This document shows, in pieces, positions 19,915 through 37,074 of a stretch of DNA of 64,000 nt (within the stretch, counting starts at the first letter, position 1; each line of letters begins with the position of its first letter). The stretch is taken from positions 4,048,263 through 4,112,262 of the forward strand of contig JAWPML010000001.1 of NCBI GenBank assembly GCA_033344915.1. Direction: 5' to 3'. Under the pieces are notes generated by a model. That model was not told the origin of the DNA and searched no databases. It saw nothing but the letters and a program-made list of their open reading frames with translations. The DNA comes from Acidimicrobiales bacterium. Its GTDB lineage: Bacteria; Actinomycetota; Acidimicrobiia; Acidimicrobiales; Aldehydirespiratoraceae. The translations under genes were made by a program, and so were the position numbers.

Positions 19915-20681
19915 CTACTGCGACGCCAGCGAGCGGTTCTTGATCTTCGCCTTGACGTAGTCGCGGTTCATGAACGCGATGAAGTCGAGGCTGATCTCCT
20001 TCGGGCAGGCGTCGTGGCACTCGCCATGGTTCGTGCACGACCCGAAGAAGTCCTCCATGGTCTCGACCATGGCCTCCGTGCGCTTCCACCGTTCGGACTG
20101 GCCCTGGGGCAACACGTTGAGGTGGCCGAGCTTGGCGGAGGTGAAGAGCTGGGCGGCGGAGTTCGGACACGCGGCGACGCAGGCACCGCAGCCGATGCAG
20201 GCCGCGGCGTCCATCGCCGTGTCGGCGACCTCCTTGGGGATGAGGGTCGCGTTCGCGTCCTGGGGCGTGCCGGTCGGGACGGAGATGTAGCCGCCCGCCT
20301 CGATGATCCGGTCGAACGCCCGCCGGTCGACCATCAGGTCCTTCAGCACCGGGAACGCCTCGGCCTTCCACGGCTCGATGACGATCTCGTCGCCGTCGTG
20401 GAACTTGCGCATGTGGAGCTGGCACGTCGCCGTGGCCTTTTCCGGGCCGTGGGCCTGACCGTTGATCATCACGCCGCACGTGCCGCAGATGCCTTCACGG
20501 CAGTCGTGCCCGAAGGTGACGGGTTCGACGTCGTCGGCGATCAGTCGTTCGTTGACCATGTCGAGCATCTCGAGGAACGACGCGTCCTCGGGGATGTCGT
20601 GCGCGTCGACCTCGAGGAACGCCCCCTGCGAGTGGGGCCCGTCCTGGCGCCAGATCTTCAGCTTGAGGTTCAGCATGCCGC

Positions 20682-20685
<4 letters not shown>
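19915..20685 (-). CDS. sdhB: Succinate dehydrogenase iron-sulfur subunit
   Basis: This 256-residue subunit carries all three Fe-S clusters: [2Fe-2S] by CREGICGTC with a fourth Cys in ATATC, [4Fe-4S] by [12 protein letters not shown], and [3Fe-4S] by [13 protein letters not shown] plus the preceding cluster-II Cys. It passes electrons from SdhA to the membrane quinone site. The GTG at 20685 overlaps the sdhA stop (GTGA) and has GGAG 6 nt upstream; an ATG at 20676 is a weaker alternative. It is the last gene of the sdhCAB operon. The order C-A-B and the single large membrane subunit mark the type B, Bacillus/Wolinella-like complex. Confidence 0.95.
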
Positions 20686-22600
<1,915 letters not shown>

Positions 22601-22601
<1 letters not shown>

Positions 22602-23422
22602 CAGTCGCCTCCTCCTTCGCTGTGGTCCACATCGGTGTCGATCACGTCCTCGGTGAACCCGATCGGATCGGCCCGATTGTCCTCGTCGATCAGGCCGAAC
22701 TGCACGGCGAGCGGGAAGCTCAGGTTGCCGACCAGGATCACCCCGGCGAGACCCTGGGCGATCCCCCGACGCAGCGAGTTGAACCGGGGGTTGTTGATGC
22801 CGAGGCTCTGGAACATCGACCATGCGCCGTGGAAGATGTGGATCGCCAGGGCGACGTTGGCGGCGATGTAGATCAGCGCGATCGGGACGGCACTCATCGA
22901 GCTGTAGACGTTGTGGTACGGATCGCCCCGGACCCAGTCGTCATCGACCCAACCCCAGGTGAGGTCGGCGAGGTGGAACAGGACGTAGAGCAGGATGATC
23001 GGGCCGGTCCAGCGCATGGTGCGGCTGGCGAACGTCGCCGCGGTGTAGGTGCGGGCGCCGACATAGGCGCTGTCGGCCTTGTGGCTCATCCGGCTCAGCG
23101 ACCAGGCGCTGTGGATGTGGACGGCGAACATGCCGATCAGCCCGAGCCGCATCACCCACAGCAGGAACGTGCGGGGGGCGAGGTGGCCGCCGAGGTCACG
23201 CAGGGCCTCGGCGTAGGCGTGCACCTGGTACGGGCCCTCGTAGAGGTGGAGATTGCCGATCATGTGCACGAGGACGAACCCGAGCAGCCCGATGCCGGTG
23301 ATCGCCATCGCGTACTTCTTGCCGACGGCGGTCTGGTAGATGTTCAGCGGCCACGGGAGTCGTGGCGGCCGTTTCCGGACCGGTGCCACGTCGTGTCGCG
23401 ACGGTGATGTTGCCTGTGCCAT
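22601..23422 (-). CDS. sdhC: Succinate dehydrogenase cytochrome b558 membrane subunit
   Basis: This 273-residue protein has five membrane helices, about 40-60, 90-115, 140-165, 180-205 and 225-245. Heme-ligand histidines are placed as in the b558 family: [37 protein letters not shown] and [13 protein letters not shown]. The subunit anchors SdhAB and reduces menaquinone through two b hemes, probably using the membrane potential as in other type B enzymes (family knowledge). The ATG at 23422 has an AAGGTG site upstream. A promoter should lie in 23423-23499 after the GH2-like gene; TACCGT and GATACC there are candidates. Confidence 0.94.
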
Positions 23423-23499: not shown

Positions 23500-25605
23500 C
23501 TACCTCACCGGTGCGGAGTAGCGGTTCGTGACCGAGAGGTCGGCGCCGGTGAGGTCGAGATCGACGACGATTCGGTCCGTCCCGTCCGGCACGACGAACG
23601 AGAGCTCGCCGATGCGTGAGCACTCGTCGGCGGCGATGGCGCCACCCCAGGCCTGGGTCTGCGTGTCGATCGTCTCGCCGGTCCCGTCGTGGGAACGCAC
23701 CGTCGCCCGCACCACGGCGTCGTCGATCGTTTCGCGCCGGTCGGACACCACGTGGATCGCCACGGCCAGGGCCTCGCCCCGGTGCGCGACGGCCGGAAGG
23801 GGATCGGCGACCACGATGACCGGTCGACAGGCGTCCACCAGGGCCTGCCACGCGGGTTTCGGGCGGCGATCGTGGTCGAGCACGCCGAAGCCGCCGGCCG
23901 GTGACGGATCGGCGAGGTAGAACTGGGCGAAGCCGCCGGTCGGCCGGTACTTGAGCCGGCGCAGCAACTCGACGCTCGTGCGGATCACCTCGGCCTGGGC
24001 AGCCTGGGTGAGCCGGGCCCAGGCCGCGCCGTCCTCGACACCGGTGGGCGGGACGAGGTGGTGCAGCGACCCGACGGACGCGCCCAACGCCGCGGCGAGG
24101 GCCTCCCAGTCGACGGCGGGCCAACGCGGATCCGCCACGAGGTCGCTCCCGGGGTCGACCGACGCCGCGCCGAACGCCGTCACGAACCGGGCCATGCGCG
24201 GCACCCGGGCCGCGGTGGCGGCGAGGTCGCCGGCTCGGCCCTCGTGCCAGCCGAACCAGAGGTGGCTGGTGGTCCCGTCGAACGACGGGAAGTGCGGCGG
24301 CACCGCCGTGTGGGAGATGACCGGACGGGAGCCGTCGGTGCGGGTGAGCACCCGCTTGACCGAGCGGTCGAGGATGTCGCGGTTCCACGACGGCGGTTGC
24401 TGTCCGACGACCGGCGGCGTCGCCGTGGGCGGGGTCGGTCGCCGGAAGGGTTCGTCGTGGACGCACCACACGGCGAGGGCCGGATGGTGCCCGAGGAGGT
24501 CGACGGCTTCGCGTGCCTGTCGGGTGGCCTGCCCCCGCACGCCACGGGCCATGACGCCGCGCAGTGGCATCTCCTGCCACAACAGCACGCCGAGCTCGTC
24601 GGCGGCGTCGTAGAGCTCCGGGCGGGCGATGTGGGCGATCACCCGGAGCAGGTCGAGCCCGGCGTCGCGCGCGGCACCGACGTCGCCCGCGACCTGCTGG
24701 GCGGTGGCGTCGCCGGGGCGGGGCGTGGTCGGGAGGATGCCGGCTCCCTTGAGGAAGAGCCGTTCACCGTTGACCGAGACGGTCCAACCCTTCATGGCGA
24801 CGGACCGGAACCCGACGCGCACCGCCCGGTGGTCGTGGACGACCTCGTCGACGACGACGTCACAACGCAGATCGTGCAACGGTTGGTCGCCGAGTCGGTG
24901 GGGCCACCACAGGGCCGGGGCGGGCACGTCCAGCGTCCACTCGATCCGGTTCTCGCCGACCGCCGCCGAGTGGACGTGCTCGTGCTCGTGTCCCGCGACG
25001 CGGGTGCGCAGGGTCACCGTTCCGCCGTCGGGGACGTCCAGCACGCAGCGCATGGACATGCGGGCGCGGGTCGGATTCGCGTCGAGGCAGATGGCGCGGA
25101 AGAACCGGATGGCCACGCTTCCGGTCTCGTGGATGTGCACCCGGCCCCAGACGCCGCCCGGGTTCTCTCCGGCGGCCCCGGAGAGCTCCGGGTCCTGGAG
25201 GGCGCCCATCATGCCGGTGCGACCGTCGGGATCGCCGAAGCGACTGCAGTTCACGTCGATCCCGAGCACGTGCTCGCGTTGGTCGGCCAGGAGGTCGGTG
25301 ATCTCGAAGCGGTGGGGGACGAAGTAGCCGTCGGTGTTGCCGACATACCCGCCGTCGAGCCAGACGTCGCCCTGTTGCGCGATCCCGTCGAGACACAGGA
25401 AGCGGCGACGCCCCTCGGGGACGGGGCCGAGTTCGAATCGGGTCCGGTGCAGCACCGAGCGGGCCGCGGTCAGCCCCTCGACCGTCGACCAGTGCCCCGG
25501 CACCGGTACCGCGCTCCACCCGCGATCGTCGAGGTCGGGCTCGTGGAACGTGCGCCGTAACTCCTCGGTCGCCGGAGCGGCCCGCCACACCCCCGACAGA
25601 TCCAT
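23500..25605 (-). CDS. GH2-family (beta-mannosidase-like) protein with altered catalytic site
   Basis: This 701-residue protein has the GH2 layout: an N-terminal jelly-roll (RRRFLCLDGIAQQGDVWLDG), an Ig-like domain and a TIM barrel starting near SVNGERLFLKGAGILPTT. At the acid/base site the usual Asn-Glu is Asp-Glu (AVWCVHDEP). At the nucleophile site the expected TEFG reads FVTAFGAAS, with Ala in place of Glu (codon GCG, one base from GAG). A conventional retaining mechanism therefore looks impossible. There is no signal peptide. TAGCCT (25614-25619, minus strand) lies 8 nt before the ATG. It ends 78 bp before sdhC on the same strand and is divergent from the MoxR-type ATPase gene. Confidence 0.8.
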   Translation of the reverse strand: MDLSGVWRAAPATEELRRTFHEPDLDDRGWSAVPVPGHWSTVEGLTAARSVLHRTRFELGPVPEGRRRFLCLDGIAQQGDVWLDGGYVGNTDGYFVPHRFEITDLLADQREHVLGIDVNCSRFGDPDGRTGMMGALQDPELSGAAGENPGGVWGRVHIHETGSVAIRFFRAICLDANPTRARMSMRCVLDVPDGGTVTLRTRVAGHEHEHVHSAAVGENRIEWTLDVPAPALWWPHRLGDQPLHDLRCDVVVDEVVHDHRAVRVGFRSVAMKGWTVSVNGERLFLKGAGILPTTPRPGDATAQQVAGDVGAARDAGLDLLRVIAHIARPELYDAADELGVLLWQEMPLRGVMARGVRGQATRQAREAVDLLGHHPALAVWCVHDEPFRRPTPPTATPPVVGQQPPSWNRDILDRSVKRVLTRTDGSRPVISHTAVPPHFPSFDGTTSHLWFGWHEGRAGDLAATAARVPRMARFVTAFGAASVDPGSDLVADPRWPAVDWEALAAALGASVGSLHHLVPPTGVEDGAAWARLTQAAQAEVIRTSVELLRRLKYRPTGGFAQFYLADPSPAGGFGVLDHDRRPKPAWQALVDACRPVIVVADPLPAVAHRGEALAVAIHVVSDRRETIDDAVVRATVRSHDGTGETIDTQTQAWGGAIAADECSRIGELSFVVPDGTDRIVVDLDLTGADLSVTNRYSAPVR

Positions 25606-25613
25606 GGGGCGGA

Positions 25614-25662: not shown

Positions 25663-27081
25663 ATGTCGAGACCAGAGACCCTCGGTGCCCTGCGCGACAG
25701 CGGTTGGGTGTCCACGCCGCTCCGCGAGGAGATCCGCCGCAACGCGATCGAGCGGATTCGGTCCGGCGAGCCGCTGTTCCCCGAAGTCCTCGGCTACGAG
25801 AACACCGTCACGCCCCAGCTCGAGAACGCCCTCATCGCGGGGCACGACATCATCTTCCTCGGCGAGCGGGGCCAGGCCAAGACGCGGATGATCCGTGGTC
25901 TCACCGGCCTGCTCGACGAGTGGATGCCGATCGTGGCGGGGTCCGAGATCAACGACGACCCCTACGCACCCATCTCGCGGTACGGGCGGGACCTCGTCGC
26001 CGAACAGGGCGACGACACGCCGATCGCCTGGGTGCACCGCGACGAGCGCTACGGCGAGAAGCTCGCCACCCCGGACACCGCGATCGCGGACCTCATCGGT
26101 GAGGTCGACCCGATCAAGATCGCCGAGGGTCGCTACCTGTCCGACGAGCTGGTGCTCCACTACGGCCTCGTGCCCCGCACCAACCGCGGCATCTTCGCGA
26201 TGAACGAGCTGCCCGATCTCGCCGAGCGCATCCAGGTCGGCCTGCTCAACGTGCTCGAGGAACGCGACGTGCAGATCCGCGGCCACAAGGTGCGCCTGCC
26301 GCTCGACGTCATGCTGGTCGCCTCCGCGAACCCGGAGGACTACACCAACCGCGGCCGGCTCATCACGCCGCTCAAGGACCGCTTCGGCTCCCAGATCCGC
26401 ACCCACTACCCGCTCGATGTCGACACCGAAGTGGCGATCGTCGAGCAGGAAGCGGACATGCCGACGATCGACGGCGTCGACGTGGCCGTGCCGAGCTTCA
26501 TGACGGAGATCTGCGCCAACATCAGCCACGCGGCGCGTGCCAGTCAGCAGGTCAACCAGCGCTCCGGCGTCTCCGTGCGGCTGTCCATCTCGAACACCGA
26601 GGTGATGGTGGCCAACGCGGTGCGCCGCAGCCTGCGCTCCGGTGCGACCCATGTCGTACCCCGCGTCGTCGACCTCGACGCGCTGCCCGCGTCAACCTCC
26701 GGCAAGATCGAGATCGAGACGCTCGACGAGGGCCGTGACCACGAGATCCTCGAGAACCTCGTGCGGGCCGCGACGCTCGCGGTCTTCAAGGACCGCGTGC
26801 CGCCCGACACCCACCGCGCCGTCGTCGACGCGTTCGAGGGCGACGTCGTGGTCGACACCGGCGAGGACGTCACCGACGAGGCCTACGCCGGCCTGATGGA
26901 GCAGATCCCCGCCTTGGCCGTGCCGGTCAAGGCGCTGCTGGCCGACGAGGACGCCGCCGACGCCGAGTCGCCGGCCATGGTCGCCAGCGCGATCGAGCTC
27001 GTGCTCGAGGGTCTGCACCTCTCCAAGCGGCTCAACAAGGACGGCTCCGGCCAGAAGTCGCAGTTCCGAAGCCGCAGCTGA
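25663..27081 (+). CDS. MoxR/ChlI-type AAA+ ATPase
   Basis: This 472-residue AAA+ protein resembles the magnesium-chelatase-like MoxR group. Walker A is GERGQAKT (67-74). The Walker B region reads GIFAMNELPDL, with Asn-Glu where Asp-Glu is usual. ASANPEDYTNRGRLITPLKDRFG supplies sensor 1 and the Arg finger. Such ATPases work with VWA-domain partners to remodel proteins or insert cofactors. The likely partner is the VWA gene at 29867, which is separated from it by an opposing three-gene operon. TAGGGT (25650-25655) precedes the ATG by 7 nt. Its stop abuts the stop of the convergent GH1-like gene as TGATCA. Confidence 0.85.
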   Translation: MSRPETLGALRDSGWVSTPLREEIRRNAIERIRSGEPLFPEVLGYENTVTPQLENALIAGHDIIFLGERGQAKTRMIRGLTGLLDEWMPIVAGSEINDDPYAPISRYGRDLVAEQGDDTPIAWVHRDERYGEKLATPDTAIADLIGEVDPIKIAEGRYLSDELVLHYGLVPRTNRGIFAMNELPDLAERIQVGLLNVLEERDVQIRGHKVRLPLDVMLVASANPEDYTNRGRLITPLKDRFGSQIRTHYPLDVDTEVAIVEQEADMPTIDGVDVAVPSFMTEICANISHAARASQQVNQRSGVSVRLSISNTEVMVANAVRRSLRSGATHVVPRVVDLDALPASTSGKIEIETLDEGRDHEILENLVRAATLAVFKDRVPPDTHRAVVDAFEGDVVVDTGEDVTDEAYAGLMEQIPALAVPVKALLADEDAADAESPAMVASAIELVLEGLHLSKRLNKDGSGQKSQFRSRS

Positions 27082-28296
27082 TCAACCGCGGGCGGCGTCG
27101 CGGAACGTGGCGGCAGCCGGGCGGTGGGATCGGTCACGGCGCAGGAGGCCCCGCGGGGCGTCGAATCCCTTCTTCCACTCGTAGCCGTCGACGCCCGCGT
27201 CGTGGAAGTAGCCGCAGAGACCGACGTCGGCGGCGGCTTCGCGCACATGGGCGAGACCTCGCGCGAGCTGATCGTCCTGCCAGGCGTCGTCGGTCGTGGC
27301 GATGCCGTGGCCGGCGACGGCGATCGAGTGATCGGGGAGTGTCTCGACAGTGCGGTGGATCGCCTCGGCCAACTCATCCGGCTCGGGCGCGAAGCCGTCG
27401 GCCGCTCGGCGGGCATCGGGCGGCCACGGCCCCAACGCGCCCTGCGGGCCGACGCCGATCGGGTGATCGTGGACGATGCCGACGATGTCGACCTCGTTCA
27501 CGAAGGCGGGGACCTCCGTGGTCGGCCGACCCTCGATCTCGAGCATGCCGTTCGCGTGGGCGCGCAGCCAGGTGCCCCAGAGCAGATCGTCCCAGCGGCG
27601 GGTCGCCTGCTCGGCCTCGACCGGGATGCGGCCGTCCTCCTCGGCCCGCGCGTGCACCGGGTCGGCGCGCCACGTGGTCATCACCGACTGGCGACCGGAC
27701 GACAGCAGCCGGACCGCGTCGTGCACGGCGAGGATCGCGCCCTCGACGGCCTCGCGCATCCACCGGGGATCGGTGCGCCCGGGTGGTCGGGTCCCGAGTC
27801 CGTAACCCCGCAGGGCCCAGCCGATGGGGTCGTCGATCGGCACGAAGCCGTCCGCGAACTCGTCGAGTTCCTCGGCGACGCGGTCGACGTGGCGGGCCCA
27901 GAACCGGCCGCGGGCGCCGGCATCGCGGTGCCCGCCCTCGTCGTCGAGATACCACCCGGGCAGCGAGGTGTGCTGGAGCGTGAGCCAGTTGCGCAGGCCG
28001 GCGTCGCGAGCCGCGGCGAGGATGTCGCGGTACCGATCGAGCGCGTCGCTGTCGAGGCGTCCCTCCTCGGGTTCGATCCGGGCCCACTCGATCGTGACGC
28101 GCCAGTCGGTGCAGCCGAGCTCGGCGAACTGGGCGACGTCGTCGCGGAAGTCCTCGTGGAGGCCGAACCCGTCGCCCGAGCGCGGGGCGCGGCCGTCGCT
28201 CTCCCACTCGGACCAGTCGGCGTAGGGCGACACCCCCTCGGCGGAGACCGATGAGGAGGTGACGCCCCAGCGGAACTCAGCGGTTGGTGAAGACAC
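27082..28296 (-). CDS. GH1-fold protein lacking both catalytic glutamates
   Basis: This 404-residue protein follows the GH1 beta-glucosidase barrel: FRWGVTSSSVSAEG at the start, WRVTIEWARIEPEEG, WLTLQHTSLPGWYLDDEGG and a C-terminal WKKGFDAPRGLL. The acid/base motif TFNEP is replaced by VPIDDP and the nucleophile motif VTENG by VAGHG. Neither catalytic Glu is present, so ordinary glycosidase activity is unlikely. Cytoplasmic binding or a new chemistry is possible. The GTG at 28296 overlaps the end of the maoC-like gene by 20 bp, so it is translated as the last gene of a tetR-maoC-GH1 operon. That context suggests acyl-CoA or lipid metabolism rather than sugar use (inference). Confidence 0.8.
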   Translation of the reverse strand: MSSPTAEFRWGVTSSSVSAEGVSPYADWSEWESDGRAPRSGDGFGLHEDFRDDVAQFAELGCTDWRVTIEWARIEPEEGRLDSDALDRYRDILAAARDAGLRNWLTLQHTSLPGWYLDDEGGHRDAGARGRFWARHVDRVAEELDEFADGFVPIDDPIGWALRGYGLGTRPPGRTDPRWMREAVEGAILAVHDAVRLLSSGRQSVMTTWRADPVHARAEEDGRIPVEAEQATRRWDDLLWGTWLRAHANGMLEIEGRPTTEVPAFVNEVDIVGIVHDHPIGVGPQGALGPWPPDARRAADGFAPEPDELAEAIHRTVETLPDHSIAVAGHGIATTDDAWQDDQLARGLAHVREAAADVGLCGYFHDAGVDGYEWKKGFDAPRGLLRRDRSHRPAAATFRDAARG

Positions 28297-29116
28297 CGGC
28301 GTCGAAGACGACGCGGTCGCCGACCCGGGTCTGGAACAGCGTCTCGTCGCCCTCGTTCCACATGTGGACGTCGAGCGTTTCGCCCGGCATCACCGGTGAC
28401 TTGAACCGGCCTCCCATCGAGCCGAAGCGGTCCGGGTCCGAGTCGCAGAGTCCGTGCAGCAGGGCACGGCCGGTGAAGCCGAAGGTGCACAGCCCGTGCA
28501 GGATCGGCTTGTCGAAGCCGGCCATCGCCGCGAACGACGGGTCGGAGTGCAGCGGGTTGCGGTCGCCGTTGAGGCGGTAGAGCAGCGCCTGGTCGTCCCT
28601 CGTCTCGTAGCTGATCACCTGGTCGGCGTCCCGTTCGGGCAACGCCCAGTCGCTCGCCGGGCCGCGGTCGCCGCCCCACCCGCCCTCGCCCGAGATGAAG
28701 AGGCCGCTGCGCGAGGTCCACAGCGGGTTGCCGTCCGCGTCGGTCACGGTGGTCTCGAGTCGGACCAGCGCCGCCTTGCCCTTGTCGTAGATCGCGGCGA
28801 CCTTTCCCTGGCCGACGGCGGTCCCCGCCGGCGGCACGGTCTGGTGGATCTCGATCGCCTGCTCGCCGTGCAGCAGCGCCGCGAGGTTGAAGTCCCCGAA
28901 CTTCGGCATGCCGCCGGAGCCCATCACGACGACCTGCGTCGGCAGCGCCTTCTGTTCGGTCTCCTGGGTGTTCTCGGTGGTGAACTCCAGCTCGAACCCG
29001 GTCGGGTCGGTGACGCCCGCGCCGACGCCGAGGGCGTAGAGCAGGCTGTCGTCCGACGTCCAGGTGATGGTGCCGGGTTCGGACGTGTTGCCGACGGCGT
29101 TCGGGTCGATGGGCAT
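28277..29116 (-). CDS. MaoC-like (R)-enoyl-CoA hydratase, double hotdog
   Basis: This 279-residue protein has the hydratase-2 motif RLNGDRNPLHSDPSFA (about 190) with the Asp-x4-His dyad that adds water to trans-2-enoyl-CoA. GFDKPILHGLCTFG follows, as in HTD-type 3-hydroxyacyl dehydratases of mycobacteria and in peroxisomal MFE-2. The N-terminal half is a second, non-catalytic hotdog. It would act in fatty-acid or sterol side-chain metabolism. The ATG at 29116 has AGGAG 5 nt upstream. It lies 32 nt downstream of the tetR gene and overlaps the GH1-like start by 20 bp. Confidence 0.88.
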   Translation of the reverse strand: MPIDPNAVGNTSEPGTITWTSDDSLLYALGVGAGVTDPTGFELEFTTENTQETEQKALPTQVVVMGSGGMPKFGDFNLAALLHGEQAIEIHQTVPPAGTAVGQGKVAAIYDKGKAALVRLETTVTDADGNPLWTSRSGLFISGEGGWGGDRGPASDWALPERDADQVISYETRDDQALLYRLNGDRNPLHSDPSFAAMAGFDKPILHGLCTFGFTGRALLHGLCDSDPDRFGSMGGRFKSPVMPGETLDVHMWNEGDETLFQTRVGDRVVFDAGVFTNR

Positions 29117-29148: not shown

Positions 29149-29775
29149 TCAGGGGGTGGGCGCGGCGAGCGTCGCCATCGCCATCGCGGTGATGCGGTCG
29201 GCGAGCCGATCGGCATCGAGATCGGCGGTCGCCGTTGTCGTGATCAGGCCGATCGCCCCGGACACGAGCACGCGGGCGTCCGCGTCGGTCAGCTCGGGTC
29301 TGGCCGAGCGGAGTTCGTCGCTCCACTCGGTCGACCAGGCCCGGAGCCGACGGGTCATCGGCGATCGGCGCTGCGAGGACAGATGGCGGGCTTCGCTCGT
29401 CCACACCGAGATCAGCGCCGAGCGTTCGAGGGCGACGCGGACATAGGCGCGGACATAGCCCTCGAGGACACCCATCGGGCCGGAACCCGAGACGCGGGCG
29501 TTCTCGTTCGCCTCGTGGACCTCGTCCGCGGCCATCTGGATGGCCTCCAGGAGGATCTCCTCCTTCGAGGAGAAGTGGCGATAGATGGCGGGACCGCTGA
29601 CGTCGACGGCCTTGCCGATGTCGTCGACCCCGGTTGCGGGATAGCCGCGCTCGTGGAACAGGTCGATCGCGGCCGCGAGGATCAACTCCCGGCGGTTCGA
29701 CGGTCGCCGCGACGGCGCCGCGTCGACCGCGTCCGCGAGGGCGTCGTCATCGAGTGGGCGGGCGGCGTCCGACAT
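29149..29775 (-). CDS. TetR-family transcriptional regulator
   Basis: This 208-residue regulator has an N-terminal helix-turn-helix: RELILAAAIDLFHERGY, then VDDIGKAVDVSGPAIYRHFS and SKEEIL, in the canonical TetR order (about 28-75). The C-terminal half is helical and should bind an effector. It is the first gene of an operon with the MaoC-like and GH1-like genes, so the effector is probably an acyl-CoA (inference from context). A palindrome centred on AACGTT lies 4 bp upstream of its ATG and is the natural autoregulatory operator. The VWA gene is divergent and starts 92 bp away. Confidence 0.9.
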   Translation of the reverse strand: MSDAARPLDDDALADAVDAAPSRRPSNRRELILAAAIDLFHERGYPATGVDDIGKAVDVSGPAIYRHFSSKEEILLEAIQMAADEVHEANENARVSGSGPMGVLEGYVRAYVRVALERSALISVWTSEARHLSSQRRSPMTRRLRAWSTEWSDELRSARPELTDADARVLVSGAIGLITTTATADLDADRLADRITAMAMATLAAPTP

Positions 29776-29866: not shown

Positions 29867-31903
29867 ATGGTCTTCCGTCGTCGTCGCCGCCAGCGGCGTC
29901 AGCCGCCCCACTTCACCTATTCGCGTTGGGACGGTTCGCAGACGGGCTTCCAGGTCGACGCCGACCATCTCTTCGACGAGCTCGCCGACGACCTGCTCTA
30001 CCACGGCGACGTCAACAACGCCCTGCGCCAGATGATGCAGGGCGGCATGCAGGACATGGACGGGCGCCGGATGGAGGGCATCCGCGACATGCTCGACAAG
30101 CTGCGCGAACGCCGCCGCGACATCCTCGACAAGCACGACCTCGGCGGCGTGTTCGACGACATCGCCGACGCGCTGCGTGAGGTGGTCGAGGAGGAGCGTC
30201 AGGCGTTGAACGACATGGTCGAGAACGCCGCCGACTCCGGCGACGAACGGCGAGCCGAGCTCGCGAGCGACTCGGCCACGATGAAGAACATGGAGCTCGA
30301 CATGCTCCCGCCCGACCTCGCCGGACAGGTCAAGGGGCTGCAGAGCTACGAGTTCGAGAGCGAAGAGGCACAGCAGAAGTTCGAGGAGCTGATGGACAAG
30401 CTCCGCGAGCAGCTGATGCAACAGCAACTCGACCAGATCGCCGACGGCGTCAACAACATGTCGCCCGAGGACATGCAGCGCATGAAGGACATGCTGGCCG
30501 AGCTCAACAACATGCTCGAGCAGCGGGCCAACGGGGTCGAGCCGGACTTCGAGAAGTTCATGGAGGACTACGGGGACTTCTTCCCGGAGAACCCGCAGAC
30601 CCTCGACGAGCTGCTCGAGGTCATGGCCCAGCGGATGGCACAGGCCCAGCAGATGATGAACTCCATGTCGCCGGAGCAGCGCCAGCAGCTCCAGGAGCTG
30701 AGCAACCAGCTCATGGAGGACATGGACCTCAACTTCCAGATGAACCAGCTGGCCGACAACCTGCGCGAGCAGTTCCCCCAGATGGGCTGGGGCCAGGGCT
30801 ACGACTTCCAGGGCCAGGACCCGCTCGACATGCCCCAGGCGATGGACATGATGGGCGAGTTGGGCGACATCGATCAGCTCGACAACCTCCTGCGGGGTGC
30901 CACCAATCCCGGCGCACTCGCCGAGGTCGACATCGACCGGGCCCGTGACCTGCTCGGCGACGAGTCGGCCGAGTCACTCGAGCGCATGGCCGAGCTGGCG
31001 CGCATGCTCGAAGAGGCCGGGCTGATCGAGAACCGCGAGGGGCGCTACGAACTGACGCCTCGGGCCATCCGCAAGATCGGCAACGGTGCCCTCGAAGAGA
31101 TCTTCAAGCAGATGTCCGACGACATGATGGGCAAGCACGAGCTCCACAAGGCGGGCCAGGGCCACGAGCGGGAGTACGAGACCAAGGCCTACGAATACGG
31201 CGATCCGTTCAACCTCCACATCGAACAGACGCTGCGCAACTCCATCGCCCGGTCCGGCGGGGGCACGCCGGTCCGTCTCCATCCGGACGACTTCGAGATC
31301 GAGCGCACCGAACAGCAGGTGCGGTCGGCCACCGTGCTGATGCTCGACATCTCGATGTCGATGGCGATGCGGGACAACTTCCTGCCCGCGAAGAAGGTCA
31401 CCATGGCCCTCCATTCGCTGATCTCCAGCCAGTACCCACGCGACTTCCTCGGGATGGTGTCGTTCAGCGAGGTGGCCCGCGAGTTCAACGCCGCCACCCT
31501 CCCCGAGCTCAGCTGGGACTATGTGTACGGCACCAACATGCAGCACAGCTTCCAGCTGGCCCGCAAGATGCTCGCCCGTGAGACCGGCACGAAGCAGATC
31601 ATCATGATCACCGACGGCGAGCCCACCGCCCACATCACGAAGTCCGGCCAGCCGTACTTCAACTATCCGCCCTCACAGGAGACGGTGGACCTCACGCTCG
31701 CCGAGGTCGCCAAGTGCACCCGCGAGGACATCCGCATCAACACCTTCGTGCTCGATGTCACCCACTACCTGCGTCACTTCGTGGAGCAGATCTCCCGCAT
31801 GAACGGCGGCCGCGCCTTCTTCACCACCAACGACAACCTCGGCGACTACATTCTCCATGACTTCGTCGAGCACAAGAAGTCGATGGTGCGTGGAAGGCGA
31901 TAG
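29867..31903 (+). CDS. VWA-domain protein, partner of the MoxR-type ATPase
   Basis: This 678-residue cytoplasmic protein ends in a von Willebrand A domain (about 485-675) whose metal site is LMLDISMSMAM (DxSxS, about 493), with later TNM and ITDGEPT elements. The middle (about 60-330) is strongly helical and rich in Met, Gln, Glu and Asp, with related segments such as MSPEDMQRMKDML and MSPEQRQQLQELS. The N-terminus is basic (MVFRRRRRQRRQ). In actinobacteria such proteins are encoded with ChlI-like ATPases, as here at 25663. The ensemble is thought to act as a metal-dependent chaperone. TAGGGT (29855-29860) precedes the ATG by 6 nt. Confidence 0.85.
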   Translation: MVFRRRRRQRRQPPHFTYSRWDGSQTGFQVDADHLFDELADDLLYHGDVNNALRQMMQGGMQDMDGRRMEGIRDMLDKLRERRRDILDKHDLGGVFDDIADALREVVEEERQALNDMVENAADSGDERRAELASDSATMKNMELDMLPPDLAGQVKGLQSYEFESEEAQQKFEELMDKLREQLMQQQLDQIADGVNNMSPEDMQRMKDMLAELNNMLEQRANGVEPDFEKFMEDYGDFFPENPQTLDELLEVMAQRMAQAQQMMNSMSPEQRQQLQELSNQLMEDMDLNFQMNQLADNLREQFPQMGWGQGYDFQGQDPLDMPQAMDMMGELGDIDQLDNLLRGATNPGALAEVDIDRARDLLGDESAESLERMAELARMLEEAGLIENREGRYELTPRAIRKIGNGALEEIFKQMSDDMMGKHELHKAGQGHEREYETKAYEYGDPFNLHIEQTLRNSIARSGGGTPVRLHPDDFEIERTEQQVRSATVLMLDISMSMAMRDNFLPAKKVTMALHSLISSQYPRDFLGMVSFSEVAREFNAATLPELSWDYVYGTNMQHSFQLARKMLARETGTKQIIMITDGEPTAHITKSGQPYFNYPPSQETVDLTLAEVAKCTREDIRINTFVLDVTHYLRHFVEQISRMNGGRAFFTTNDNLGDYILHDFVEHKKSMVRGRR

Positions 31904-31980
31904 CGCTGAACGACCCTCAGCCTCAACGTGACACCGCCGCCGCCGATGGGCAGGGGGTGAGTGCATCCGGAGGGGAGACC

Positions 31981-34900
31981 GTGCGTCCCGAAGTCGGTTC
32001 CGAAGCGTGGCACCAGTTGATCGCGGGCGAGCTCCAGCGGTCGGTGGTCGAGCTCGCCGATGCCCCCCTCGACGGGTTCGACGAGGTGCTGGTCGACGTG
32101 TTCGGCCGGTTCGGCCGCCTTCTCGGGGCGAATACGGTCGGCGAGGCCACGACGACGGACGAAGGCGTCGTGTGGTTCGACGACACGCTCACAACGCTGG
32201 AGGAGGTCGAGGCGTTCGGTGTGATCGCCCGCTCGCTGGAAGAGGTCACCGGCCTCACCACCGTGAAGGGTCCGCGAGGCTGCCCCATCGTCGCCGCGCC
32301 GGCGAACAGCGGAGGGTTCTCGAAGTTCACCGCCTTCATCGGCGAGCCCGGCTGCGTGCCCGGCGTGGACATCCTCCGCGCCCTCGGGATGCTCAGCGCG
32401 ATCGTGGGTGCCGCCCGCCAGCGCATCTGCGCCGAGCGCGAGCTGCGCGACCGGGCCGAGCGCCAGGACCGTCTCAACGAGCTGTCGGAGATGGCGGCCA
32501 CGGCCACACCGGATCCCGAGACGCTCGAAGCCATGCTGGAGCTGGCGCGCACGTCGCTCGACACCACTGCCGCCTCCACGCTCGTGCGCGACGGCGACGA
32601 GTTCGTGCTCGTCGCGTCGACGGACGTGTTCGGCGAGCGACCGGTGCCGATCGGCACGCGGACCAGCGACACCGTTGCCCGCTTGCTCGAGAGCGCCAAC
32701 GCCGGCCATCTGGTGCGCCCGCTCGAGGACTTCGTGCGATCGCCCGACGCGCTGGTCAACTCGGTCGGCGACGTGCTGGTCGTGCCCCGCTACGTCGGTA
32801 CCGAGGTGGCGGGCGTCGTGGTGTTCATGGACGCCCGCAACCGCACGTGGCTCGAGGAGGACATCGAGTTCGCGAAGTCCGTCTCGCGCAGCATCCAGAA
32901 TCTCGTGCTGCGAACCGACATGGATGCCCGCCTCCGCCGTCGACACGAGCTCGATCGGATGATCTCGGCGGTTGCGACGATCGCGGCGCGGACCACCCTC
33001 GAGGCACTCGACGAGGTCATGGAGGAGACGCTCCGACTCGCCATCGAGGGATTCGGGCTCACGGGCGCGAGCATCTGGGCCTCCGTGGACGATCGGGCCG
33101 TGCGGGTGGCCTCACGCGCTGCCGACGGCGAGCTCAGCCACGATCGGGTCAGTGCACCCTTCGACGAGGATGGCGGGCGACGACTCGTCGAGAGCGGTGT
33201 CCGATTCGTCGAGGTCTCCTCCTTCGAACTGGACGGTCCGCCGTTGACGCCCTCCGGGACGGGGCTGGTCGTCCCGATCGGGGTCGCTCCCAGCGGCTTC
33301 GTGGTCTTCATCGCCGACGACAAGACCTGGACCGACGACGAGATCGCCGCGGCGAAGGCCCTGGCGTCCCTCGCCGAGCAGACGCGTGTGCGCCTCCGGG
33401 GAGACGCCGCGATCCACGAGCGCCTCCGGGGCGAGGCGCTCACGGCCGCGGTTGCCGCCGCGGCCGTCGACACGACCACGGCCAACGTGGACGAGCGGGT
33501 CGCGACGATCCTGCGGCTCGTGCAGGACCACTTCGGCGTGGTCGAAGCGTCGATCTGGCGGTTCGGTCCCGACACGATCTGGTGCGACGCTGCCGTGCGA
33601 ACGGACGGACGTCCCGCCGCGGCGGGGTGGACGATGCCGCTGCCACCTGGCGACGGCATCCGATCACGGGGCTGGGGGATCATGCGGCTCGGGTCGCTCG
33701 ATCTGGGCGACAACCGGCAGCTCGATCCGGACGACACCAAGCTCCTGGTGGTCGGCTACGGCAGTGCCGTCGATCTCATCGGCGGAGTGGTACTCACCGA
33801 CCACACGGGCCGCTGGTGGCACGAGGAGGACATCGCGACGGTCCGCAGTGTCGGCGCGATCATCGGGCAGCTCCACCTCCGTATCCAGTACGCCCGTCGA
33901 CTCGAACGCCAGCAGTCGATCGAACGGGTGCTCGCCGACACATCGGCGCGCTTCGTCCACGCCACGCTCGACGATGCGAACCAGGTCGTGGAGGACGGGC
34001 TCGAGGAGCTGCGCCGCCACTTCGGCCTGGCGTCGCTCACCCTGCTCCACCTCGATCGTCCTTCCCTGCAGATGCAGGTGTCGTGCGAGGTGACCGAAGA
34101 CGGCCTGGCGATGCTCGCCTCGCTGCCGCCCCTCGACCGCGATGCACCCGCCATGGCCCGGATCCTCGATCCCGCCGCGAGTAGCCGCTGGCCGCTGAGC
34201 GATCTCTTCCCGACCGCACCGGCCGGCATCGAGACCATCGTGCTCCCCACCGTTCGTGGCCGCGACGTCGTGATGCTCGTCGCGACGGTACGCGCCGGGA
34301 GCACCTTCTCCGAGGACGCGGAGCCCTCGTTGCTTTCGATGGTCGGTTCGATCGCCCAGCTGCGCCGTCGTCTCCTGCTCGAGCGGCACTCCCGGCGGCG
34401 GGCGGAGGCCGATCAGCTGGTCGGCTCGATCGCGCGATCGTTCATCGAGCAGCCTCCTCACGACCACAACAGTGCCGTCGCGGAGGCACTCGAGCGCATC
34501 GGTACGTTCTTCGGGCACGTCGCGATCAGCTACTGGGACGTGCCGGCCGACGAACCCTTGCGTCGCGTCTTCGGATGGTCGGACCCGGACCACGCCGACC
34601 TCGATGCCTCCCGGATCGAGGTCTCCGGCGCGGGTCACCCATTGTCGAGTCTGCTCGCGACGTCGGCCGAGTCCGAGGTCGTGGAGCTCGGCGCCCACGC
34701 GCCGATCCCTGAACTGAGCAGCCACACGATGCTGATCCAGCGTTTCGGGTACGACGACTTCGAGTGCGGACTCGCGGCCCAGATCGCCCGGCCGAAGCAC
34801 CAGATCGACGATCTGGACATCCAGCTCGACGTGCTGGAGAACGTCACGCGGCTCGTCGAGCAGCTCTGGCAACGGGCGGACGCCGAGTTGCTCGTCAGCC

Positions 34901-37074
34901 GCAGACTCCAGCACGAGGATCGGCTCCGTCGATTCGCCACCACGCTCCTGTCCGTCGATGCGGATTCCAACGAGACGGCCGAGGCGGCGTTCGCCGAGCT
35001 TGTCGCCTCGGTCGGCGTCGATCAGGCCACCATCTGCCGCTTCGCGGCGGGGCCGGAAGGATTCGACTGTGACGCGGTGCTCCATGTCGCGAAGGACGGC
35101 GTCGGCGCGCTCGACGAGCGCTTCCAGTCGTTCGTCCTGCCGCTCGGGTTCACGGACCCCGCCACGGCGCCGCACTTCTCCGCGTCCGCCACCCAGTGGC
35201 CGATCGACGAAGCGCCGGCCGGGACCCAGCAGATGCTGCGAGCCACGGTCCCACCGGGCCCGCGTCAGATCGCGTTCCTGCCCGCGCCGGGTTCGGACCA
35301 TCGGGGCGACGGCAGCTACCTCACCCTGTCGCGACCGGGCAATGGCCCCTTCGCGGCCGAGGATCTCGAGCTGTTCCGGTCGGCCCACTCCATCCTCGTG
35401 CAACACGAGGCCCGGGTGGCCGCGGAGCGCTACTTCGGTGCGGCCTTCAATTCCGCGCCCGTCGGGATCAGCCTGCGCGACCGCGACCTCCGGTTGCTGC
35501 ACTGCAACGCCGCCTACTGTGATCTGCTCGGGCGCAGCCACGACGCACTCGTGGGGACGGACCTCCACGAGGTGATGCCGCGTGACATGGCCGATCAGCG
35601 GGTCGAGCAGCTCGCCGATGCCCACGAGGGCAGCAGCGAGACCGAGTCGGTCTACCGGCGTCCGGACGGCACGATCCGTTGGGCATCGGTGCGTTCGACC
35701 GCCATCACGATCCCGGGCCGCCGTGGTCCTCTGTATCTCAGCTACGCCGAGGACATCACCGACCGCCGCCGCAACCGCGAGATGCTCGAGTACCAGGCGA
35801 CCCATGACGAGCTCACCGGTCTCCCGAACCGGCGATCACTGGTCGCGGAGATCGCCCAGGAGCTGGCGCACCAGAGCGACTGTGCAGTGCTCGTTCTCGA
35901 CCTCGACCGCTTCAAGGTCGTCAACGACTCGCTCGGACACAGTGTCGGTGATCAGCTCCTCATCACCTGCTCGGACCGGATCCGCCTGTCCCTGCGGCCC
36001 GGCGATGGTCTCTGCCGGCTCGGCGGCGACGAGTTCGCGATCCTGCTCCGCGCCCCCGCCGACGCCCATGCCGCCGGCGTGGTCGCCGACCGACTCCTCA
36101 CCCTGTTGCGCGAGCCGGTGATCGTCGGCGACGACGAGGTCTTCCCGAGTGCCTCGATCGGCATCGCGATCCCGAACGAGGGTGACTCCGTCGAGGACCT
36201 GCTTCGTCATGCCGACGCGGCCATGTACCAGGCGAAAGGCCTGGGCCGGGATCGCTGGGAGGCGTTCGACGGGTCGATGCGCCAGGCCGTCGTCGATCGC
36301 ATCCGCACCGAGACCGATCTGCGGCGGGCCATCGAGAACGGTCAGCTCGAGGTGCACTATCAACCCGAGTTCCTGCTCGAGACCGGCGAGATCGTGGGCA
36401 CCGAGGCGCTGGTCCGTTGGCGCCACCCGGAGCGGGGTCTGCTCGCCGCGGGCTCGTTCATCAGCCTCGCCGAGGAGACCGGTCTCGTCGTCGACCTCGG
36501 ACGCTGGGTCCTCACCCAGGCCACGTTGCAGGGGGCCGCGTGGCTCGCGGCCGGTCACGACATCATCACCCGCGTCAACTTGTCGGCCCGCCAGCTGCGC
36601 GGCGCCGTGGTCGCGGAGGTCGAGGAGGCATTGCGCCACGCCGGGCTTCCCGCCAACCGCCTGTGTCTCGAGCTCACCGAGACGGCGATCATGGACGACG
36701 TGCAGGAGTCCGCGCGCATCCTCGCCCGGTTCCGTGAACTCGGGGTGCAGGTCGCGATCGACGACTTCGGCACCGGTTTCTCGTCCCTCGCGTACCTGAA
36801 ACGGTTCCCCGTGGACATCCTGAAGATCGACCGCACCTTCGTGGACGGTGTGGGAGTCGATCCCGACGACACAGCCATCGTCCGATCCGTGATCGGTCTG
36901 GCCCGCACCCTGCGGTTGGAGGTCGTCGCGGAGGGCATCGAGGACGCGTCCCAGGTCGGGGAACTCGTCCGGCTCGGGTGCGTGCGGGGGCAGGGCTTTC
37001 ACCTCGCGCGTCCGGCTCCGGCGGAGGATGTCTCGATGCTCCTGGCCGGCACCAGGGCGCCCATTCGCGAGTAG
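31981..37074 (+). CDS. Giant multi-GAF-PAS-GGDEF-EAL signalling protein
   Basis: This protein of about 1697 residues has no membrane segment. Its first 1130 residues hold several GAF-like sensor units, each beginning with a helix such as RRHELDRMISAVATIAARTTL or LEALAxxx-type repeats and ending in a loop like WTDDEIAAAKALASLAEQ. A PAS domain follows (about 1147-1260), then GGDEF (CRLGGDEFAILL, about 1347) with an RPGD inhibitory site, then EAL (GTEALVRWRHPERG, about 1474). ELTETAIMDD, IDDFGTGFSSL, LKIDRTFV and EGIED keep the EAL metal and catalytic residues, so both c-di-GMP synthesis and breakdown are possible. The GTG at 31981 follows GGAGGGGAG; a GTG at 31957 is also possible. Confidence 0.9.
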   Translation: MRPEVGSEAWHQLIAGELQRSVVELADAPLDGFDEVLVDVFGRFGRLLGANTVGEATTTDEGVVWFDDTLTTLEEVEAFGVIARSLEEVTGLTTVKGPRGCPIVAAPANSGGFSKFTAFIGEPGCVPGVDILRALGMLSAIVGAARQRICAERELRDRAERQDRLNELSEMAATATPDPETLEAMLELARTSLDTTAASTLVRDGDEFVLVASTDVFGERPVPIGTRTSDTVARLLESANAGHLVRPLEDFVRSPDALVNSVGDVLVVPRYVGTEVAGVVVFMDARNRTWLEEDIEFAKSVSRSIQNLVLRTDMDARLRRRHELDRMISAVATIAARTTLEALDEVMEETLRLAIEGFGLTGASIWASVDDRAVRVASRAADGELSHDRVSAPFDEDGGRRLVESGVRFVEVSSFELDGPPLTPSGTGLVVPIGVAPSGFVVFIADDKTWTDDEIAAAKALASLAEQTRVRLRGDAAIHERLRGEALTAAVAAAAVDTTTANVDERVATILRLVQDHFGVVEASIWRFGPDTIWCDAAVRTDGRPAAAGWTMPLPPGDGIRSRGWGIMRLGSLDLGDNRQLDPDDTKLLVVGYGSAVDLIGGVVLTDHTGRWWHEEDIATVRSVGAIIGQLHLRIQYARRLERQQSIERVLADTSARFVHATLDDANQVVEDGLEELRRHFGLASLTLLHLDRPSLQMQVSCEVTEDGLAMLASLPPLDRDAPAMARILDPAASSRWPLSDLFPTAPAGIETIVLPTVRGRDVVMLVATVRAGSTFSEDAEPSLLSMVGSIAQLRRRLLLERHSRRRAEADQLVGSIARSFIEQPPHDHNSAVAEALERIGTFFGHVAISYWDVPADEPLRRVFGWSDPDHADLDASRIEVSGAGHPLSSLLATSAESEVVELGAHAPIPELSSHTMLIQRFGYDDFECGLAAQIARPKHQIDDLDIQLDVLENVTRLVEQLWQRADAELLVSRRLQHEDRLRRFATTLLSVDADSNETAEAAFAELVASVGVDQATICRFAAGPEGFDCDAVLHVAKDGVGALDERFQSFVLPLGFTDPATAPHFSASATQWPIDEAPAGTQQMLRATVPPGPRQIAFLPAPGSDHRGDGSYLTLSRPGNGPFAAEDLELFRSAHSILVQHEARVAAERYFGAAFNSAPVGISLRDRDLRLLHCNAAYCDLLGRSHDALVGTDLHEVMPRDMADQRVEQLADAHEGSSETESVYRRPDGTIRWASVRSTAITIPGRRGPLYLSYAEDITDRRRNREMLEYQATHDELTGLPNRRSLVAEIAQELAHQSDCAVLVLDLDRFKVVNDSLGHSVGDQLLITCSDRIRLSLRPGDGLCRLGGDEFAILLRAPADAHAAGVVADRLLTLLREPVIVGDDEVFPSASIGIAIPNEGDSVEDLLRHADAAMYQAKGLGRDRWEAFDGSMRQAVVDRIRTETDLRRAIENGQLEVHYQPEFLLETGEIVGTEALVRWRHPERGLLAAGSFISLAEETGLVVDLGRWVLTQATLQGAAWLAAGHDIITRVNLSARQLRGAVVAEVEEALRHAGLPANRLCLELTETAIMDDVQESARILARFRELGVQVAIDDFGTGFSSLAYLKRFPVDILKIDRTFVDGVGVDPDDTAIVRSVIGLARTLRLEVVAEGIEDASQVGELVRLGCVRGQGFHLARPAPAEDVSMLLAGTRAPIRE

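Follow-up and report, generated by a model that had tools for sequence, protein, structure and literature searches.

Gene content and surroundings of the locus

The gene at the centre of this analysis occupies positions 27082-28296 on the reverse strand of a 64,000-nucleotide stretch of Acidimicrobiales DNA (the window), which comes from a 4.48 Mb genome in a single contig, and encodes a glycoside hydrolase family 1 (GH1)-like protein of 404 amino acids from a GTG start. Its stop codon directly abuts that of a convergent gene (25663-27081, forward strand) for a MoxR-type, or Mg-chelatase-like, AAA+ ATPase; the MoxR label is our own, the Mg_chelatase and AAA_5 models scoring above their Pfam cut-offs and the AAA_3 and bpMoxR models below theirs. 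On its other side lie two further reverse-strand genes, a lineage-specific one for a MaoC/MFE-2 hydratase-2 protein (28277-29116) and one for a TetR-family regulator (29149-29775), which is present in the window's clade and is SACE_7040/FasR-like at scores below the equivalog cut-offs. These are followed on the forward strand by a gene for a VWA-domain protein (29867-31903), the partner gene of the ATPase; its Pfam label is weak (VWA_2, 25.1 bits against a cut-off of 27), and in other actinobacterial classes the VWA gene is found near the ATPase gene on the same strand. Beyond the ATPase gene, the reverse strand encodes a GH2 beta-mannosidase-like protein (23500-25605 from a presumed ATG start at 25605; residue numbers below follow the 703-residue frame of 23500-25611), then sdhC (22601-23410), for a succinate dehydrogenase/fumarate reductase cytochrome b subunit of the b558 family that recurs beyond the GH2-like gene, sdhA (flavoprotein; ORF 20682-22823, the protein beginning near residue 75) and sdhB (iron-sulfur subunit; ORF 19915-20775). 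Downstream of the VWA gene, a forward ORF of 1705 residues (31957-37074) reads as a run of GAF domains with PAS-GGDEF-EAL after them, and matches to it lie past the VWA gene in several related loci.

The GH1-like protein matches Pfam PF00232 (E 1.2e-16, 60.6 bits, gathering cut-off 22.6) and scores 94.9 bits against NCBIfam BGL, far under the equivalog cut-off of 478.5; the families named in searches with it are solely glycoside hydrolases of GH1 and related folds. An AlphaFold2 model built with 61 sequences has a mean pLDDT of 95.2 and a pTM of 0.93, and its best PDB match is 1vff (Z 48.9, rmsd 2.1, 386 residues aligned, 25% identity). Among the best 50 structural matches, GH1 structures score Z 45.8-48.9, with alignments running from residue 2-6 to residue 404. 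Both the family score and this nearly end-to-end alignment of the model agree with the original prediction of a GH1 fold, and by sequence and predicted structure the protein is a member of the family with the complete fold. It reads as a single bacterial domain in which a signal sequence is not obvious. One further Pfam GH1 match lies elsewhere on the chromosome of the same genome (L245, C1:4234641-4235090), in a GH1-clan ORF of 405 residues whose NEP and SET motifs look intact.

At E 1e-40 or better, the family profile matched 108 of the 397 genomes of the order, intact sisters included, and gave no match at that threshold in the other 289, so that the locus is not universal. The 80 named relatives are metagenome-assembled genomes, mostly labelled Acidimicrobiales, Acidimicrobiaceae or Acidimicrobiia, and the actinobacteria concerned are for the most part uncultured. 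Loci from the same genome or nearly identical to another were dropped (L004, L080, L091, L105, L122, L168, L169, L170, L173, L174, L178, L179, L181, L186, L187, L192, L195 and L196), and loci L001-L030, whose genomes are largely covered by longer loci, were kept out of the residue, tree and gene-order counts. The truncated rows L040, L061, L109 and L121 were left out of the residue counts and retained in the gene-order and neighbour counts, which in turn omit the partial GH1 rows L045, L046, L114 and L124. The relatives' loci were scanned with the neighbour genes of the window, the counts for succinate dehydrogenase being counts of SdhC matches.

VWA or MoxR was seen, within the stretch covered, in 85 of the 89 dereplicated loci with a degenerate GH1-like protein, and wherever a degenerate locus shows both (62/62) the GH1-like gene lies between them, as does the GH1 gene in all seven intact loci described below. 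This constant position with respect to both partners makes the locus a MoxR/VWA-associated one. The GH1-like gene runs opposite to MoxR in 71 of 75 degenerate loci and opposite to VWA in 70 of 72, an arrangement that does not imply co-transcription; the same-strand exceptions (VWA in L073 and L074; MoxR in L069, L071, L072 and L074) could be local inversions or assembly effects. With degenerate and intact loci taken together, the GH2-like gene is present in 56 of the 64 loci that extend 2.5 kb beyond MoxR, and an SdhC homologue in 37 of the 51 that extend 4 kb. Outside the class, eight of nine larger MoxR stretches (L234-L236, L238-L242) have VWA nearby on the same strand and zero GH1 or GH2 matches, the ninth (L237) being too short to tell; L243, a stretch from within the order, resembles them in having MoxR and VWA without GH1 or GH2. 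Three same-order loci (L229, L230, L232) combine MoxR and GH2 with an absent or weak GH1 match, so not every member of the order has the GH1-like gene. L228, from the same class outside the order, has a GH1 gene whose active site is degenerate in another way (pattern HEQQYG); this gene stands between VWA and MoxR, SdhC follows directly beyond MoxR, and there is no GH2 match.

The original prediction had placed the gene in a tetR-maoC operon and hence in a fatty-acid context. The coupling to MaoC is real in the window, where the MaoC stop (28277-28279) and the GH1-like start (28294-28296) fall within a 20-base overlap, and the operon is there as described. It is not general: a same-strand MaoC gene is found in 44 of the 89 degenerate loci (within 150 bases in 43) and TetR in 15, against 85 with VWA or MoxR. 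On these counts we reject MaoC and TetR as defining partners, and the fatty-acid context is not supported as the defining setting. A role alongside MaoC and TetR in a lipid pathway, be it acyl-CoA or glycolipid metabolism, would draw on the overlap and on these partial associations; we consider it very improbable, since 45 of the 89 degenerate loci have no same-strand MaoC in the stretch covered (some stretches being short) and none of the seven syntenic intact loci has MaoC.

Catalytic positions and pocket of the GH1-like protein

Active GH1 enzymes carry their nucleophile Glu in the motif [TI]-E-N-G and their acid/base Glu in T-F-N-E-P. The corresponding segments of the window protein are VAGHG at 327-331 and VPIDDP at 152-157, as first read, and the family alignment places G329 in the nucleophile column, D156 in the acid/base column and D155 in the Asn column preceding it, so that neither catalytic position holds the Glu of an active enzyme. 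The earlier statement that both catalytic glutamates are lost thus stands for the nucleophile; at the acid/base position the alignment points to a conservative change from E to D, with the carboxylate retained. The same pattern runs through the relatives more regularly than chance would give. In the 68 core rows, defined as degenerate rows at least 42% identical to the window protein and therefore selected in favour of its residues, position 156 is always D (68/68) and position 329 is G in 41, A in 21, S in 5 and E in 1; across all 86 degenerate rows, the counts are D 79, E 6 and R 1 at position 156, and G 56, A 22, S 6, E 1 and Q 1 at position 329. With D in all core rows at one position and G, A or S in 67 of 68 at the other, the normal retaining pair is absent from a GH1 fold, as had been proposed. 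L101 is the single member with Glu at 329 (in AECG) and still has Asp at the acid/base position; its close relatives L104 and L118 have Gly, and the Glu is possibly a reversion.

The loss extends to the sugar-binding site. Conserved residues of the GH1 -1 subsite are Q20, H121, N165, Y296, W398, E405 and W406; in the window protein S18, D155, D277 and D366 replace the Q, N, Y and W, and H109, E373 and W374 are still present, W374 being retained in 65 and E373 in 32 of the 68 core rows. We compared the core rows with 22 of the 24 intact rows, namely 16 sister rows and six ordinary GH1 rows (L041 and L042 omitted). Among 54 positions near-invariant in the intact rows, 35 persist in at least 90% of core rows and 9 in an intermediate share; the other 10 persist in under 10%: T12, S68, F110, N155, E156, Y277, E329, W366, N371 and F382. 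Seven of these ten belong to the old catalytic motifs or the sugar pocket, namely N155, E156, Y277, E329, W366, N371 and F382, which we take to correspond to N165, E166, Y296, E352, W398, N403 and F414 of GH1. The replacements are uniform among the core rows, with Y277 changed to D in 63/68, W366 to D in 66/68, N371 to G in 67/68 and F382 to R in 66/68. Of the 86 degenerate rows, 62 have D156, D277, D366 and R382 together and the other 24 miss one or more of the four; none of the 24 intact rows has the full set. From their GH1-equivalent positions, the four residues presumably face one another in one pocket. Drift after a loss of function does not give so uniform a pattern. A His/Asp metal site (H276-D277-H278, H330, H365), an idea that came from the close clade (H276 28/28; H278 26/28, two unread), was rejected as a family-wide feature (H276 31/68, H330 30/68 and H365 48/68 core rows); the set D156, D277, D366 and R382 holds better across the core rows.

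Several functions could be imagined for such a protein. It is highly improbable that it has remained a retaining glycosidase in which D156 would serve as acid/base and the role of nucleophile would fall to a different residue or to an external anion: the whole fold is kept, W374 and, less often, E373 persist and L101 has its Glu at 329, but the nucleophile has been lost together with four sugar-site residues (Tyr, Trp, Asn and Phe), and single mutants at either Glu of Streptomyces griseus SGR_2426 are drastically less active, according to excerpts of PMC12369401. Hydrolysis of glycosides has thus likely been lost, judging from the residues present, while some catalysis could remain through the E to D change at the acid/base position.

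The rebuilt pocket might also catalyse another reaction, glycoside-related or not, for example as an inverting hydrolase or phosphorylase in which D156 would be the acid and a new Asp the base, the cavity at 329 would hold water or phosphate and R382 an anion. The uniform D/D/D/R replacements, unlike drift, and the carboxylate at the acid/base position in every core row speak for such a new enzyme, as does the change of the nucleophile to Gly or Ala, which is a classical way of removing the retaining mechanism. Most other residues of the -1 subsite (the equivalents of Q, N, Y, W and F) are gone, however, which makes it unlikely that a hexose would sit there as it does in GH1; position 329 varies among G, A and S, and the family searches named glycoside hydrolases only. 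We regard a new enzyme as improbable. A similarly low likelihood attaches to a pure scaffold, in which new Asp/Arg salt bridges would plug the empty pocket and the protein would serve as a surface to which MoxR, VWA or the GH2-like protein binds. That complementary charges co-occur (D156, D277 and D366 with R382), that the replacements hit pocket residues and spare those of the fold, and that in the Klotho proteins a GH1 fold has turned into a protein-binding receptor (excerpts of PMC10628560) would suit a scaffold; the charges are unbalanced, though, with three Asp against one Arg.

The gene is under purifying selection. Nei-Gojobori dN/dS was computed for 15 pairs, 11 of them within clades and four with the window gene as one member, one of these four covering just 142 codons. 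All values lie between 0.06 and 0.20, a range similar to that of the neighbouring MaoC gene (0.03-0.22); of the 14 pairs that also include MoxR, 11 give the GH1-like gene the higher value. No internal stop was found in the GH1-like gene of relatives inside any match listed. The catalytic residues are lost and the gene is kept by selection, so the window protein appears to be a pseudoenzyme. That it might be a decaying relic without function would sit with the several differing catalytic states across the order, yet we reject decay of this kind on the low dN/dS and the fixed replacements, and the fixed position and the stop-free matches listed add to this; we give it practically no weight. The degenerate proteins are instead a group spread through Acidimicrobiales, not a local oddity. 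Of the substitutions and the operon, which the original prediction suggested looking for in related genomes, the substitutions recur across the order and the operon is not general.

Intact relatives and the history of loss

Seven dereplicated loci (L033, L035, L158, L159, L161, L164, L166) carry an intact GH1 gene in the same position between VWA and MoxR, its motifs being [IV]NEP for the acid/base, AE[CHA]G for the nucleophile, and W..DNYEW. In six of these loci the state of the GH2 neighbour is readable, and both of its catalytic glutamates are kept in all six. The original prediction had counted intact orthologues against itself; syntenic intact relatives do exist, but they are distant: among the rows tabulated, any with both glutamates shares at most 43% identity with the window protein, and in the tree the main degenerate branch does not include them. 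They indicate that the ancestor was probably an enzyme, one that lost its catalytic residues in place, given that an intact GH1 persists at the same locus in other lineages; they say nothing for activity of the window protein itself.

The GH2-like neighbour looks inactive as well. It retains the acid/base E387 and has A479 at the nucleophile position, and so lacks the pair of glutamates expected of an active retaining enzyme, which agrees with the earlier description of a second inactive-looking glycosidase nearby. Its model (pLDDT 89.0) is of low confidence next to the old active site, at 389-409 and 440-443, and is matched best by the GH2 exo-beta-mannanase 6byc (Z 35.1, rmsd 3.4, 654 residues aligned, 20% identity), matches within 1 Z of it being counted as tied. 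A second match to the protein was absent from its own genome at E 0.01. We looked for a uniform replacement signature in the GH2 rows and found none; the end states (n=63) are EA 18, EE 13, AA 11, DQ 7, QA 6, DA 3, EG 2, TA 1, TE 1 and AE 1, and the GH2 tree itself requires at least four changes of nucleophile state.

Both states are readable in 64 rows, the window included, and since these rows are related the following counts are not independent: both proteins are degenerate in 51, GH1 is degenerate with GH2 intact in 7, both are intact in 6, and GH1 is intact with GH2 degenerate in 0. The 0 against 7 suggests an order of loss. An independent-pairs test of joint loss yielded four pairs, two of them going the same way (p 0.5), which is too few for power and lends joint loss no support. 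In a GH1 tree computed without the catalytic columns, for which shallow clades were additionally thinned to leave 80 rows, 54 degenerate rows form one branch (SH-aLRT 98) and L190 stands apart, giving two changes, and an AU test does not reject a single degenerate clade (p 0.42). The MoxR+VWA tree requires at least five changes of GH1 state and three of GH2 state. The two trees conflict in how intact and degenerate rows are interleaved (for example L161 among L120, L183 and L184), a conflict that old paralogues, gene exchange or repeated loss could all explain. Taken together, the main loss in GH1 seems to date far back and to be shared, and those in GH2 seem to be several and more recent, the GH2 neighbour having lost its own catalytic residue separately from GH1. 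A second degenerate GH1 group (L120, L183, L184, L185, L233), with VLDP or ILDP, LLGTG and the pattern D-R-E-G, may be an independent loss; in the three of its loci that were read (L120, L183, L184) the GH2 neighbour is intact.

A possible role beside the MoxR-VWA pair, and known relatives

The loss of the parts needed for catalysis, the selection on the gene, the new residues in the active site and the fixed place within a chaperone gene pair together make it very probable that the GH1-like protein has taken on a new job. As to what this job is, the reading we prefer, with a probability of about one half, is that of a GH1 pseudoenzyme whose rebuilt pocket would make it a ligand-responsive adaptor or client-specificity subunit of a MoxR-VWA chaperone, a proposal drawn from sequence and from analogy with known ATPase-VWA pairs. 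A GH1 beta-glycosidase gene would have come between the MoxR-type ATPase and VWA genes in the Acidimicrobiales lineage, and a GH2 beta-mannosidase-like gene would have been placed on the other side of the ATPase gene; the synteny and the intact syntenic relatives support these arrivals. In the lineage of the window the retaining pair was lost (E to D, and E to G or A) and the old sugar pocket turned into the charged site D156, D277, D366 and R382, sequence changes that are fixed in most of the degenerate clade. It is plausible from these residues that the rebuilt pocket binds a ligand, which we would expect to be a small charged molecule or a protein peptide, and that the protein responds to it in its work as adaptor or specificity subunit. 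By analogy with RavA-ViaA, the client might be the SDH/FRD-type complex encoded next door; this link is speculative, what is observed here being gene proximity only. More tentatively, and as something we would not expect to hold in full, the site of three Asp and one Arg might have a new catalytic or sensing function, the protein might be a third MoxR-VWA component servicing succinate dehydrogenase, and the GH2-like protein might likewise be on its way to a pseudoenzyme.

The locus resembles RavA-ViaA and NorQ-NorD in that an AAA+ ATPase and a VWA protein are encoded together. It differs from RavA-ViaA in that the pair is split by the GH1-like gene, usually flanked by the GH2-like gene and often by sdhC. 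In excerpts of PMC10585395, RavA-ViaA is reported to repress Escherichia coli fumarate reductase through a contact between ViaA and FrdA, and the same source mentions results of another group that contradict this effect. The locus offers an entry point to a MoxR-VWA system often found next to sdhC.

The solved GH1 enzymes nearest in sequence are the Pyrococcus horikoshii beta-glycosidase 1vff, 4r27 and SGR_2426 (8kap). The window protein shares with solved GH1 enzymes the whole (beta/alpha)8 fold and the scaffold motifs; unlike them, it has Gly at the nucleophile position, Asp at the acid/base position, and replacements at the sugar-site Tyr, Trp, Asn and Phe. For SGR_2426, the excerpted text of PMC12369401 gives E168 as candidate acid/base and E318 as nucleophile and reports drastically decreased activity of the E168Q and E318G mutants; entry 9u98 would be the E318G mutant, going by its printed sequence and that text. 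The window protein naturally carries the same Glu-to-Gly change.

To our knowledge, the GH1 pseudoenzymes known so far are the animal Klotho proteins, and a search of open-licence papers on GH1 pseudoenzymes, inactive glycosidases and MoxR/AAA+ proteins in Acidimicrobiia did not find the present group among the papers listed. Klotho and beta-Klotho lack the catalytic glutamates and are used for binding, according to excerpts of PMC10628560, and Klotho was matched by the GH1-like protein in phmmer (3.8e-10). Klotho is an extracellular tandem receptor, whereas the window protein is a single bacterial domain with a pocket signature of its own in a MoxR-VWA locus. The group would thus be a bacterial case of a GH1 pseudoenzyme running through an order and, because intact relatives still stand at the same locus, one can follow and test, one residue at a time, how an enzyme became a non-enzyme. 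It also serves as a warning that family-based annotation will label these proteins glycosidases.

Two glycosidase families, GH1 and GH2, decay side by side at this one locus. The GH2-like neighbour shares the fold of GH2 exo-beta-mannanases and beta-mannosidases (6byc, 2je8), and its natural Ala at the nucleophile position parallels the laboratory mutant E575A (6byg) of a solved enzyme. Over residues 3-638 it also matches the PADLOC model CARF_Beta-galactosidase_LolE_TM (E 1e-43), the score of 147 bits exceeding that of its best PDB sequence match (59.8 bits), and a related GH2-like domain may therefore sit in CARF-containing CRISPR accessory proteins.
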